The position numbers and the translations under genes are program-made. This document shows, piece after piece, positions 5,587 through 39,361 of a stretch of DNA of 45,480 bases (position 1 is its first letter; every line of letters begins with the position of its first letter). The DNA comes from a bacterium (GTDB lineage: Bacteria > Bacteroidota > Ignavibacteria > SZUA-365): the NCBI GenBank assembly GCA_020444325.1, contig JAHLLD010000019.1, positions 1-45,480 on the forward strand. Reading direction: 5' to 3'. The notes under the pieces are model-generated. The model was not told the origin of the DNA, made no database searches, and was given only the letters and a program-made list of their open reading frames with translations.

Positions 5587-6999
5587 ATGGCTGAGAGCAA
5601 ACCCAAACCCCGTCTGAAGGATTTTCCAAAGAATTACTGGATTGTCATCCTCTTCGAATTTTTCGAGCGCGGATCGTACTACGGCATGATGAGCATTCTG
5701 TCGGTGTACATGACGGATCAGCTCGGATTCTCAAAGGAAGGTGTCGGACTGATCAAAAGTACCATTCAGCCTCTGCTGTACTTCCTTCCCATTTTCTCCG
5801 GCGCGGTGGCCGACCGCATGGGATACCGTCGAACACTCATGGTCGCGTTTACCCTGCTGGGCGGAGGCTACTTCCTGACGAGTCAGATGACGGAATACAG
5901 TGCTGTGTTTTTCGCCCTCGTCATCATGGGCTTCGGGGCCGGTACCTTCAAACCGGTAGTTTCGGGGACCATCGCGAAAGTGACGGACGAAAACAACAGC
6001 ACGCTCGGCTTTGGCATTTTCTACTGGACTATCAATCTCGGTGCATTCCTCTTCCCGCTGATTATCGTGCCAATGCTCAAAGCCATCGCCTGGCACTATG
6101 TCATTATCGCATCAGCCATCGGAACCGGCGCCATGCTGATTCCCACGATATTCCTGTTCAAGGAACCCAACGAGCCGCATCCTGACAAAGAGTCGTTCGG
6201 CACGGCGCTGAAGGGCATCTGGCAGAAACTCTGGATGGTGTTCACTGACTGGCGTTTCATTCTCTTCATCTTCATTTACAGCTGGTTCTGGATTCTGTAT
6301 TTCCAGATGTTCGACAGCGTTCTGTGGTATGTCAAAGCCTTTGTCGATGCCACGCCGCTGGATAACTGGGTACAGAGTACGCTCGGAATCGACTGGCATT
6401 TCGATGTCGAACACGTGACCGTCATCAACGCAGGCACAATCATCCTGCTGCAGCTCTTCATTTCTAAAATTGTGAGCAAGACGAAAGCCCTCCCCACCAT
6501 GGTCACGGGTATCGCTTTCGGCACCATCGGTATGGCCATCCTCGCCTTCGACACAAGCATCTGGGTGTTCATGGCGGGAATCATCATTTTCTCTATCGGT
6601 GAAATGACCGCGCATCCGAAATTCATCAGCTATCTCGGACTCATAGCGCCGCCGGACAAAAAGGCGACGTACATGGGTTTCGGTTTCCTTTACGGCGCAT
6701 TCGGCAGCCTGGTCGGCGGTATTCTCGGTGCCTTCCTTTACGTCCGCTTCATCGATAACCCGATGATTGCCTTCGTGAAGCAGACCATCGCGGAGCGTGG
6801 CGGAAACATTGCCGGCTCCGGCGAAATGACGATCGAAAGTGCTCTTGAAATCGGTAACCAGATTGGCTTGACCAAGTTGGATATCGCACAGCATGCGATG
6901 ACCAGCGAACTGTGGTTGCTGTTCAGTGGTATCGGAGTACTGTGTATCATCGGACTCCTGACCTATCAGAAAGTCATCGGAACACGTACCGGACATTGA
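5587..6999 (+). CDS. POT/PTR2-family proton-coupled oligopeptide transporter
   Basis: This 470-residue inner-membrane protein has about 12 hydrophobic segments. Its first helix carries EFFERGSYYG (E24, E27, R28), the ExxER proton-coupling motif of the POT family, and a later helix contains FYWTINLGAF, matching the FYxxINxG signature. It is likely to import di- and tripeptides with protons. The start at 5587 (MAESKPKPRL) is chosen because homology begins there; the open frame upstream to 5425 encodes a low-complexity stretch unlike the family. A strong terminator follows. It is flanked by unrelated divergent and convergent genes and is probably transcribed alone. Confidence 0.85.
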   Translation: MAESKPKPRLKDFPKNYWIVILFEFFERGSYYGMMSILSVYMTDQLGFSKEGVGLIKSTIQPLLYFLPIFSGAVADRMGYRRTLMVAFTLLGGGYFLTSQMTEYSAVFFALVIMGFGAGTFKPVVSGTIAKVTDENNSTLGFGIFYWTINLGAFLFPLIIVPMLKAIAWHYVIIASAIGTGAMLIPTIFLFKEPNEPHPDKESFGTALKGIWQKLWMVFTDWRFILFIFIYSWFWILYFQMFDSVLWYVKAFVDATPLDNWVQSTLGIDWHFDVEHVTVINAGTIILLQLFISKIVSKTKALPTMVTGIAFGTIGMAILAFDTSIWVFMAGIIIFSIGEMTAHPKFISYLGLIAPPDKKATYMGFGFLYGAFGSLVGGILGAFLYVRFIDNPMIAFVKQTIAERGGNIAGSGEMTIESALEIGNQIGLTKLDIAQHAMTSELWLLFSGIGVLCIIGLLTYQKVIGTRTGH

Positions 7000-19088: not shown

Positions 19089-19835
19089 TCAGCCCATGCT
19101 CCAGAGCTGCCTGCGGCGGACCGCTGCCCGCTCACGTTTCCGGAGGTTGTGCTGATGCAGCATAAGTGAGAGCTGCTCTCTCACTGTCGTGAAATTGTAA
19201 AACCGGCGAAAGGTGACATTCTGTTCCTGGCAGAACTGCTCGAGTTCTCCGCGGGCGAACACCAGGTCTGCGTACATCGCGGCGTCGAAGTCCGAGCTTC
19301 CGTCACCGATATAGATAATCAAATCCTCATCCTGCGCCAGCAGCGCCACATGGTTGCTTTTGCAATTTGCGATTTCCGGGCAACGCGGGTCGAAATGCGG
19401 GAAACGCATCTCCACCTTGTTCCCTTCTATGCGCAGTTCATTTGCCAGCAGCGGCAGGTCGAGTCCCACCCTCTCCATCAACGGCTCGATGTAGGCATCG
19501 GATCCGTCACTGAGAATATGCAGGGGATACCCCTCCTTCTCGCACCATGCTGCGAAGCGTGGAAACGTCTCATCCACCGCGAAGCGGGAAAGAAACGTCT
19601 CAAAACGTTCCGCAGTGACATCCCGCATGGCCGCACACAGCGCGCTGTACGCGTCAGGAGCGGTACGGATGCCACGGAGCCACTCACCACGAATCCGGTC
19701 GAACACCGCGTTCCCGCAGAAGTGACGGAACAGCGCTTCGCCCACATCATCGTGCGTGATCGTCCCGTCGAAATCCGCGAAAATACGCACTGTCGGTTCC
19801 GGCAGCTGTGAGGTGAAGGACGGCATTTCAGGCAT
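19089..19835 (-). CDS. HAD-IB family phosphatase, MtnX-like
   Basis: This 248-residue HAD-superfamily hydrolase has motif I in FADFDGTIT (nucleophile and acid/base aspartates), a motif II region near HILSDGSDAY and a C-terminal acidic motif in IYIGDGSSDFDAA. The arrangement resembles MtnX of the methionine salvage pathway and phosphoserine-phosphatase-like enzymes, but the substrate is uncertain. The start at 19835 (MPEMPSFTSQ) has GGGAGG nearby and overlaps the gatA stop by 8 nt. The longer open frame up to 20099 is rejected because it only reads the antisense of the gatA repeat tail. A charged C-terminal tail (RKRERAAVRRRQ) is unusual. Confidence 0.75.
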   Translation of the reverse strand: MPEMPSFTSQLPEPTVRIFADFDGTITHDDVGEALFRHFCGNAVFDRIRGEWLRGIRTAPDAYSALCAAMRDVTAERFETFLSRFAVDETFPRFAAWCEKEGYPLHILSDGSDAYIEPLMERVGLDLPLLANELRIEGNKVEMRFPHFDPRCPEIANCKSNHVALLAQDEDLIIYIGDGSSDFDAAMYADLVFARGELEQFCQEQNVTFRRFYNFTTVREQLSLMLHQHNLRKRERAAVRRRQLWSMG

Positions 19836-21450
19836 CCGCGCTTCCCTCCCGTTCTTCCTCAGCGCCCGATTCCTCTGTGCTTGCGCCTGAAATATGCAGT
19901 TTCTGCATATTTTCACGACCCGATGTATGCGCATTCTGCAGATTTTCACCGGAATTATGCAGTTTCTGCATATTTTCGTCGCCGGGATTATGCAGTTTGT
20001 GCATAATTCGTTCGACTGCGGCTGCGGCTGTGTACAGGCTTTCCTCGCCGAAGGCAGGGGCCATAAACTGTACGGCCAGGGGATTTCCAGCCTCGTCATT
20101 CCCGGCGGGAACGCTGATGGCGGGAATACCTGTCAGGTTCGCGGCCGTATTGAACAGATCGGTCAGGTACATATGGAGGGGGTCATCGAGTCGCGCTCCG
20201 AAGGCGAATGGCGGACCCGGGGTGACGGGGGTCAGTAAAAGATCAGTGTTGCTGAACACGCCGGCAAACTCCTCACTGACACGACGCCGCATGCGCTGCG
20301 CCCTGCCAAGCCAGTCGTGCTCCTCGCTTCCGGCCAGCAGGGTAACGCCAAGCATGATGCGCCTGTGCACCTCGCGGCCAAAGCCTTCGCCCCGGTTTGC
20401 CGCATAGCGCTGCATGAGCATCGAGAGCGGGAATGAGGAATGAGAATCCGTAGCTGACGCGGGATTCGGGGAGGCCGTTCCCAGTCGCACACCGTCGTAG
20501 CGGGCAAGGTTCGATGAGGCCTCCGCGTTTGCAATCACGAAATACGCGGGAAACACGGAGGGCGTAAGCGGCAGAGATACCTCTTGCACTTCAGCCCCCT
20601 TGCTCTCGAGAGCATCTGCGACAAAGCGCAGACGCATGCGTATTTCTTCCGGTACATCTTCAGCCATGTATTCGGTGGGAATGCCGATGCGCAGGCCATC
20701 GATAGTTCGCTCCGTGGCCACGAGATAATCCGGTACCGGAAGGTCGGCCGAGGTCGCATCCGCCGGATCGTGTCCGGCAAGAACACCGAGCAGACGCGCG
20801 TTGTCGCGTACGCAGGAGGTTATCGGACCGATTTGATCGCAGGATGACGCAAAAGCGATGAGTCCGCTGCGCGAGACGCGTCCCCAGGTCGGTTTCATTC
20901 CCACCGTTCCGGTGTAGGCGGCGGGCTGACGGACCGACCCACCGGTATCGCTCCCGAGTGCGGCGTGAAGGAGTCCGGCCGCGACCGCCGCTGCGCTTCC
21001 GCTGCTGCTGCCGCCCGGCACGCGTCCCGGGAGAAACGGATGTTGTGTGGGACCGTAGGCCGATGTTTCCCCGGAAGACCCCATGGCGAATTCATCCATA
21101 TTGCAGCGCGCCATGAGCACCGCGCCTGCTTTGCGCAGACGCCTGACGACAGTGGCGTCATATGTGGCGATGTGGTCGGTGAGCATGCGGGAGCCAGCCG
21201 ATGCGGCTTTGCCGCGCATGCAGATATTGTCTTTGATCCCGACCAGGATGCCTTCGAGTGGACGGCATGTGCCCTCCCGCACCCTCCGATCGCTTTCCCG
21301 TGCCTGCCCGACTGCCTCATCGGCATGGATCTCCAGCAGGGCATTGAGCTGCGCATGACGGTCGCTGCGTTCGATTGCGCCGACAACAAGAGAGGCACAG
21401 AATTCCTTCCGTGCCTCTATGAGGGGTACGACATGTTCATACTGCATCAT
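19828..21450 (-). CDS. gatA: Asp-tRNA(Asn)/Glu-tRNA(Gln) amidotransferase subunit A, with repeat-derived C-terminal tail
   Basis: This 540-residue amidase-signature enzyme has the Ser-cisSer-Lys triad at K73 (GIKDNIC), S148 (PGGSSSG) and S172 (SDTGGS). The spacing fits GatA, which releases ammonia from glutamine to amidate mischarged tRNAs. GatB and GatC are not in the window. Typical GatA proteins end after about 480-490 residues, roughly at the ERI just before residue 483. Here the frame continues through four copies of a palindromic DNA repeat translated as MHKLHN, MQKLHN, LQNAHT and MQKLHI, each followed by a (S/P)G spacer, then an acidic tail. The extension is probably disordered and dispensable. 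No Shine-Dalgarno site is evident. Confidence 0.88.
   Translation of the reverse strand: MMQYEHVVPLIEARKEFCASLVVGAIERSDRHAQLNALLEIHADEAVGQARESDRRVREGTCRPLEGILVGIKDNICMRGKAASAGSRMLTDHIATYDATVVRRLRKAGAVLMARCNMDEFAMGSSGETSAYGPTQHPFLPGRVPGGSSSGSAAAVAAGLLHAALGSDTGGSVRQPAAYTGTVGMKPTWGRVSRSGLIAFASSCDQIGPITSCVRDNARLLGVLAGHDPADATSADLPVPDYLVATERTIDGLRIGIPTEYMAEDVPEEIRMRLRFVADALESKGAEVQEVSLPLTPSVFPAYFVIANAEASSNLARYDGVRLGTASPNPASATDSHSSFPLSMLMQRYAANRGEGFGREVHRRIMLGVTLLAGSEEHDWLGRAQRMRRRVSEEFAGVFSNTDLLLTPVTPGPPFAFGARLDDPLHMYLTDLFNTAANLTGIPAISVPAGNDEAGNPLAVQFMAPAFGEESLYTAAAAVERIMHKLHNPGDENMQKLHNSGENLQNAHTSGRENMQKLHISGASTEESGAEEEREGSADA
19890..20007. repeat. Four in-frame copies of an ATGCA-TGCAT palindromic repeat inside gatA
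   Basis: Units start at 19893, 19926, 19956 and 19989, with periods 33, 30 and 33 nt, all multiples of three. The best unit is a 10-bp perfect inverted repeat with a TTT loop (19890-19899 with 19903-19912). The fourth is 8 bp with a 5-nt loop (19987-19994 with 20000-20007). The second unit is degenerate. Spacers share a CCGG-plus-GAAAAT theme on the minus strand. The same repeat family occurs between genes at 39310-39361. Confidence 0.85.
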
Positions 21451-39273: not shown

Positions 39274-39310
39274 AACGGGATGCATGTTCACAGCATGCAT
39301 CCCGTTTTTA
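39274..39310 (+). terminator. Intrinsic terminator of the giant adhesin gene
   Basis: A perfect 14-bp stem (39274-39287 with 39295-39308) has a 7-nt loop and a run of five T at 39306-39310. It lies 25 nt after the stop codon. The stem itself includes ATGCATG/CATGCAT and directly abuts the palindromic repeat that follows. Confidence 0.85.
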
Positions 39311-39361
39311 TGCACTTTCTGCATATTCACATCCTGCCGGATATGCACTTTCTGCATATCT
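39310..39361. repeat. Two intergenic copies of the ATGCA-TGCAT palindromic repeat
   Basis: Unit A is TATGCA-CTTTC-TGCATA (39310-39326). Unit B is GATATGCA-CTTTC-TGCATATC (39341-39361), an 8-bp perfect inverted repeat. The period is 33 nt, the same as in the gatA copies, and the spacer also has a CCGG core and a GAAT edge when read on the minus strand. It sits between a terminator and a promoter. Confidence 0.8.

Follow-up and report, generated by a model that had tools for sequence, protein, structure and literature searches.

MatP, SlmA and Noc bind sites that occupy only a part of the chromosome and are usually retained among the members of one genus. In Rickettsia palindromic elements and PARCELs, the unit is longer and is either inserted or repeated in tandem within coding DNA. 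In lambdoid phages, dyad-symmetric iterons lie within the O initiator gene (PMC7466680), and for E. coli the chromosome is reported to titrate DnaA (PMC12371093). In Neisseriaceae, DNA uptake sequences (DUS) number in the thousands per genome, and dyad-symmetric pairs of DUS are known in Simonsiella and Kingella (PMC3630211). The repeat described here is a 17-base palindrome, TATGCA-GAAAC-TGCATA, which is dispersed over a genome of the class Ignavibacteria (4.65 Mb in 25 contigs). No relevant account of a repeat of this kind in Ignavibacteria was found in the literature.

The window, i.e., the whole stretch of 45,480 nucleotides that was analysed, is contig C19 of this genome. At the 3' end of its gatA gene, four copies of the palindrome, three good and one degenerate, follow each other with periods of 33, 30 and 33 nt and are translated as part of the protein (Table 1). 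The first-pass annotation had described these copies, their periods and the four peptides correctly, and its proposal that they form a repeat-derived extension of GatA of ~58 residues was confirmed by comparison with relatives. The body of GatA stops near residue 482. Orthologues from the same genus align over residues 1-483/492 at 65-67% and extend 10-25 residues past the end of the alignment in short tails that are mutually unrelated; among the named relatives, the most similar GatA (68% identity) belongs to an uncultured Ignavibacteria MAG. Since the relatives lack the repeat tail and have unrelated short ends, the tail is, to judge from these alignments, a lineage-specific addition. The net extra length resulting from the array amounts to roughly 30-45 amino acids. 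The order of gatA and the gene for a HAD-type phosphatase is conserved in relatives. In one congener (G001), the tail of GatA (locus L033) also consists of a short local repeat, ASRGDASRGEASR, in units of 15 nt; thus, the C terminus of GatA seems to be generally permissive. We judge the tail to be a by-product of the motif, the array being translated passively as in other linkers and tails.

Table 1. Palindrome copies in the window and the genes and protein segment associated with them
Feature	Position	Strand	Remark
gatA, amidase subunit of Glu-tRNA(Gln)/Asp-tRNA(Asn) amidotransferase, 540 aa	19828..21450	(-)	ORF
Repeat-derived C-terminal tail, residues 483-540, ~58 residues	19831..20004	(-)	Absent in relatives
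Palindrome copy, exact TATGCAGAAACTGCATA, MQKLHI	19893..19909	(-)	
Degenerate copy, 4 mismatches, LQNAHT	19926..19942	(-)	Read from sequence
Palindrome copy, exact, MQKLHN	19956..19972	(-)	
Palindrome copy, 1 mismatch, MHKLHN	19989..20005	(-)	
HAD-type phosphatase, next operon gene	19089..19835	(-)	Start overlaps gatA stop (ATGCCTGA)
Intergenic copy, 1 mismatch	39309..39325	(-)	
Intergenic copy, 1 mismatch	39342..39358	(-)	33 nt from the 39309 copy

The exact 17-mer is found at 139 places in the genome, in balanced orientation (69/70 on the two strands), and only once in a set of 394 further genomes from the phylum. The pattern ATGCAGTTTCTGCAT with at most one mismatch occurs at 283 places genome-wide, vs. 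0 for a reversed-pattern control, and chance is thereby ruled out as the origin of the specific motif. The shorter pattern ATGCA-N5-TGCAT (≤2 mismatches) is present 39 times in the window, where a mean of 25.4 is expected, which is a modest excess only. About a quarter of the assembly was read contiguously. A sample of 1.19 Mb contains 98 copies with ≤3 mismatches (control 0), which scales to ~380 copies per genome at a density of ~1 per 12 kb. In this sample, the mismatches among the copies form a graded series, and the spacing of the loci is mildly even (CV 0.87 and 0.65). The exact 15-mer is found at 25-43 places per Mb on the five large contigs, C1-C5, and on these five, which are not ordered relative to each other, no restriction to a chromosome domain was seen. 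A scan of ~85,000 species, from which the source genome was apparently left out, revealed no dimers of the exact core.

With genes called by a simple codon-usage script rather than a published gene finder, 52 of the 98 copies lie within predicted genes, vs. a coding fraction of 86%. The intergenic loci are flanked by tandem, divergent and convergent genes in 13, 7 and 6 cases, respectively, with no sign of a promoter preference, which speaks against a gene-regulatory role. The genes next to arrays of the palindrome, as read by eye, are assorted and mostly have housekeeping functions, e.g., those for UvrB, release factor 1, GlyRS, GlnRS, HtpG and GltX. Thus, there is no regulon pattern.

Aligning the 98 copies gives the consensus AWTATGCA-GAA[A/T][C/G]-TGCATAWT, with 6-bp arms that are nearly invariant and have a centre-to-centre distance of 11 bp. 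The flanks of the copies in this genome show no strong conservation outside the palindrome with its A/T edges. Departures from the arm sequence number 21, none of which is restored by a compensatory change in the opposite arm, and this result rules out the hairpin as the selected feature. In addition, 34 of the 98 copies lack an intact inner G:C pair. Together, these observations suggest that the sequence is recognised as double-stranded DNA and not as a hairpin.

The segments around in-gene copies were searched in relatives with a concatenated query. The alignment is ungapped around the motif for 25 of the 26 single in-gene copies that have an alignable orthologue. The orthologues agree with the motif at 8.8 of 17 positions, and at 6.8 of 17 for the exact copies, while the flanking DNA is 69% identical. 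For example, a fumarase has NMQKLHN where its orthologue has ALMTLQE, a glycosyltransferase has NMQKVHI in the place of NLLTNAP, and a racemase-like enzyme has NMQKLHK in the place of NRTAIDA (family names assigned by eye). These ungapped alignments to orthologues without the motif show that single copies were written over existing codons, i.e., that they arose, as read from the sequences compared, by in-place substitution and not by insertion; the orthologues have diverged so far that individual mutational steps are not traceable. Exact copies tend to be located at variable positions of the proteins and imperfect ones at conserved positions. Nearly all in-gene copies (51/52) are read in the frames xMQKLHx or YAETAY or their antisense counterparts, and the frame ICRNCI is used once. 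The arrays within genes are situated in variable linkers and tails and add net length; the gene at C2:182815, for instance, gains 16-21 residues. Local growth of arrays inside genes, including gatA, is real.

A further characteristic of the repeat is its phasing. In a set of 37 arrays, 49 of the 59 close neighbours are separated by exactly 33 nt. The set comprises 20 triples, 16 pairs and one quadruple, and it was partly picked where arrays were already seen, so that the share of arrays in it is biased; the 1.19-Mb sample, which is unbiased, contains 50 singles, 12 pairs and 8 triples. The 33-nt step is equally exact in intergenic arrays, which rules out the keeping of the reading frame as its cause. 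The centres of neighbours at 33 nt have the same orientation in 39 cases and the opposite orientation in 10. The spacers are only slightly more similar within arrays (0.38) than between arrays (0.31; p 0.03, 37 arrays). That the arrays stem from recent tandem duplication is mostly ruled out by the nearly unrelated spacers and by the 10 neighbours in opposite orientation, while the orientation bias and the slight likeness of the spacers suggest that some arrays may descend from old duplications. No half-strength partners were found hidden at 33 nt from single copies. Given the 11 bp between the arms and the step of 33 bp, all half-sites would point to roughly the same side of the helix.

The same site is present in viral contigs. 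In one of them (L354), a five-copy array at positions 1055-1165 lies inside a gene and is translated as YAETAHEASMQKLHTSSAETAHEGMQKLHT (YAETAH/MQKLH). The N-terminal part of the protein encoded by this gene matches HTH_36 just below the cut-off, as well as phage replication-initiation families. Another contig (L353) has four copies between a gene with weak matches to RepA_N and to phage DnaD-type proteins and an HTH_3 gene, and in a third (L388) the array, at 6035-6095, lies inside a gene that was read as wHTH-like and is translated as MQEVH. A looser scan for pairs of TATGCA-N5-TGCATA identified 30 viral contigs with steps of 26-48 nt, most of them in no initiator gene; the majority of these matches were inspected for the array and the overlapping ORF only. 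From its sequence context, the site in these unrelated viral elements is plausibly a protein-binding array. In the source genome, a search with HTH_36 gave no match above the cut-off and the best match to phrog_186 (phage DnaD-type) had an E value of 0.11, so that no convincing homologue of the viral initiators was found with these two families. A triple array of the source genome (L091:8299-8381, near position 333299 of contig C5) is located ~150 nt upstream of a gene resembling BlaI/MecI-type HTH regulators, and the product of this gene is a possible candidate for the binding protein.

Copies with at most one mismatch are scarce in congeners: 11 in G001, 24 in G004 and 2-3 in G002 and G003. 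G004 has its own version of the motif, GTGATGCAGAAACTGCATCAC, and at one of its loci (L105) the 33-nt unit is truly duplicated in tandem. At four other loci of G004 (L107, L108, L109 and L121), a full site is followed by the half-site TATGCA ~30 nt on and by a second full site at 51 nt. G001 contains arrays of a palindrome resembling TTTTACCCGGGTAAAA, with three and four copies at a step of 21-22 nt (contig C1, ~225498-225551 and 374548-374623), which is absent from 380 kb of the source genome; a scan of 380 kb of G001 for a motif analogous to that described here found none that is equally abundant.

The source genome has a single gene for a Y1/RAYT-type transposase (Y1_Tnp, C4:175149). No copy of the palindrome is present in the 20 kb around this gene (C4:165001-185000), which rules out a RAYT/REP reading. 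The gene is flanked by a second dispersed repeat family, CGCAGATTTTCG / CGCGGATAATCGCGGAT (C4:175149-175373, locus L061; also C1 33135-37155 and 142156-146731), and this may be the true REP family of the genome. A third repeat, a hairpin of the CCCCACGCAGAGCGTGGGG type, is found on C1 near 206700 (L006), with 8-9 copies in 380 kb.

The reading that we favor, with a probability of about 0.5, is that the repeat is the lineage-specific, chromosome-wide binding site of a putative sequence-specific, probably dimeric, DNA-binding protein. The dispersal and even spread of the copies, their in-place origin, the conservation at the level of the sequence, the 33-bp phasing, the lack of a regulon pattern and the viral arrays at initiator-like genes all argue for it. 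One dimer would bind each palindrome; adjacent dimers, spaced by three helical turns, would face the same side of the DNA and touch each other. The protein would act chromosome-wide, in folding, segregation or titration of an initiator, and not on a regulon. In constrained stretches of a protein, sites that are single and imperfect would evolve over existing codons, whilst in linkers and tails, such as the C terminus of GatA, entire phased arrays could grow and be translated passively. Several points count against such a binding site. The searches with HTH_36 and phrog_186 turned up no cognate protein, a confinement to part of the chromosome as for MatP, SlmA and Noc was not seen on C1-C5, and copies are few or lacking in congeners. 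In addition, the biased orientation of the centres and the slight likeness of the spacers within arrays point to a possible descent of some arrays from old duplications.

The main rival is a sequence of the DUS/USS type, in which case motif-bearing fragments would be favored in natural transformation and the motif would accumulate in place by biased import. Import of this kind fits with the in-place substitution within genes, the presence of copies both in and between genes in balanced orientation, the graded mismatches, the differing version in a congener and the mildly even spacing of the loci. Moreover, ComEC and DprA are present in the source genome, and the DUS pairs of Simonsiella and Kingella provide a precedent for dyad symmetry. 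However, pairs and triples phased at exactly 33 bp are no known feature of DUS, the density of the palindrome is far under that of DUS in Neisseriaceae and under the order of one copy per kb expected of a DUS, and nearly all relatives possess ComEC and DprA, even where the motif is scarce or absent. We regard biased import as possible but less likely. A further rival starts from the resemblance to viral arrays. In this reading, the sites would be the iterons of a replication initiator of the plasmid or phage type that came to be distributed across the chromosome of the host and titrate this initiator there, as decoys or for control of copy number. The arm sequence and the 5-bp centre match those of the viral arrays, two of which lie within wHTH initiator-like genes and one between RepA_N-like and HTH genes, the looser pairs recur in 30 viral contigs, and the lambdoid iterons and the reported titration of DnaA are precedents. 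Yet, many of the 30 viral matches are outside any initiator gene, the assembly lacks an HTH_36 match above the cut-off and a convincing one to phrog_186, and only weak selection is expected on each of ~400 extra decoys. Such a spread of iterons appears improbable.

The first-pass annotation had favored a mobile or self-amplifying palindromic element that is tolerated in coding DNA and that keeps the reading frame by a spacing in multiples of three. An element of this kind would be comparable to REP/RAYT or to inserts like the Rickettsia palindromic elements. The palindrome is indeed dispersed and has copies in frame, the arrays within genes do add length, and a true tandem duplication of the 33-nt unit exists in a congener; dispersal, the repeat-derived tail and the growth of arrays in genes are thus parts of that annotation which stand. 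Its mobility and the frame-keeping insertion of single copies do not. Insertion is contradicted by the ungapped alignments, according to which 25 of the 26 single in-gene copies add no residues, there is little conservation outside the palindrome and its A/T edges, the spacers are nearly unrelated, and the Y1_Tnp gene is situated in 20 kb that are free of copies and is flanked by a different repeat; the step of 33 nt, moreover, is kept where there is no frame to preserve. We consider a mobile element very unlikely. Returning to the binding site, it is conceivable, though rather unlikely, that an initiator-type or other dimeric protein stamped an iteron-like site over the whole chromosome, overwriting codons in a three-turn phasing and creating a lattice of decoys or of organising sites. 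If this were true, stamping without insertion would be a route by which a short motif passes through essential genes.

The repeat clearly illustrates that a palindrome which is long and near-perfect can spread by substitution; it has done so in one species only and has reached the genes for fumarase, dTDP-glucose dehydratase and, as an array, GatA. The system lends itself to testing directly whether such a genome-wide signature spreads by biased uptake, by selection for protein binding or by templated overwriting. It also implies that the peptide tails of essential enzymes can be by-products of selection at the level of the DNA.

Compared with the known systems, the palindrome resembles the DUS of Neisseriaceae and the USS of Pasteurellaceae as a short motif with many in-place copies in coding and non-coding DNA, in balanced orientation and with dialects between relatives. 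Unlike these, it is palindromic throughout, about ten-fold rarer and arranged in exact 33-bp phased arrays. With the sites of Noc, SlmA and MatP it shares the form of a palindromic dimer site dispersed over the chromosome, but there are more sites here, they form phased arrays and are nearly absent from congeners, and the protein is putative. REP/REPIN sequences with their RAYT likewise comprise hundreds of dispersed palindromes per genome, whereas about half of the copies described here lie in genes and in place, the RAYT-type gene is unlinked, and the arms are conserved without compensation. Rickettsia palindromic elements and PARCELs (for the latter, see PMC2996958) are, like the present arrays, palindromic DNA translated within proteins, but single copies of the present motif replace codons. 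As to the iterons of phages and plasmids (lambda O, RepA_N), the resemblance consists in phased arrays of one dyad site, with 49 of 59 steps at 33 nt here, and in the translated MQKLH/YAETAH of the viral contig L354; in contrast to these iterons, the palindrome occupies hundreds of chromosomal loci, and the searches for an initiator were negative.
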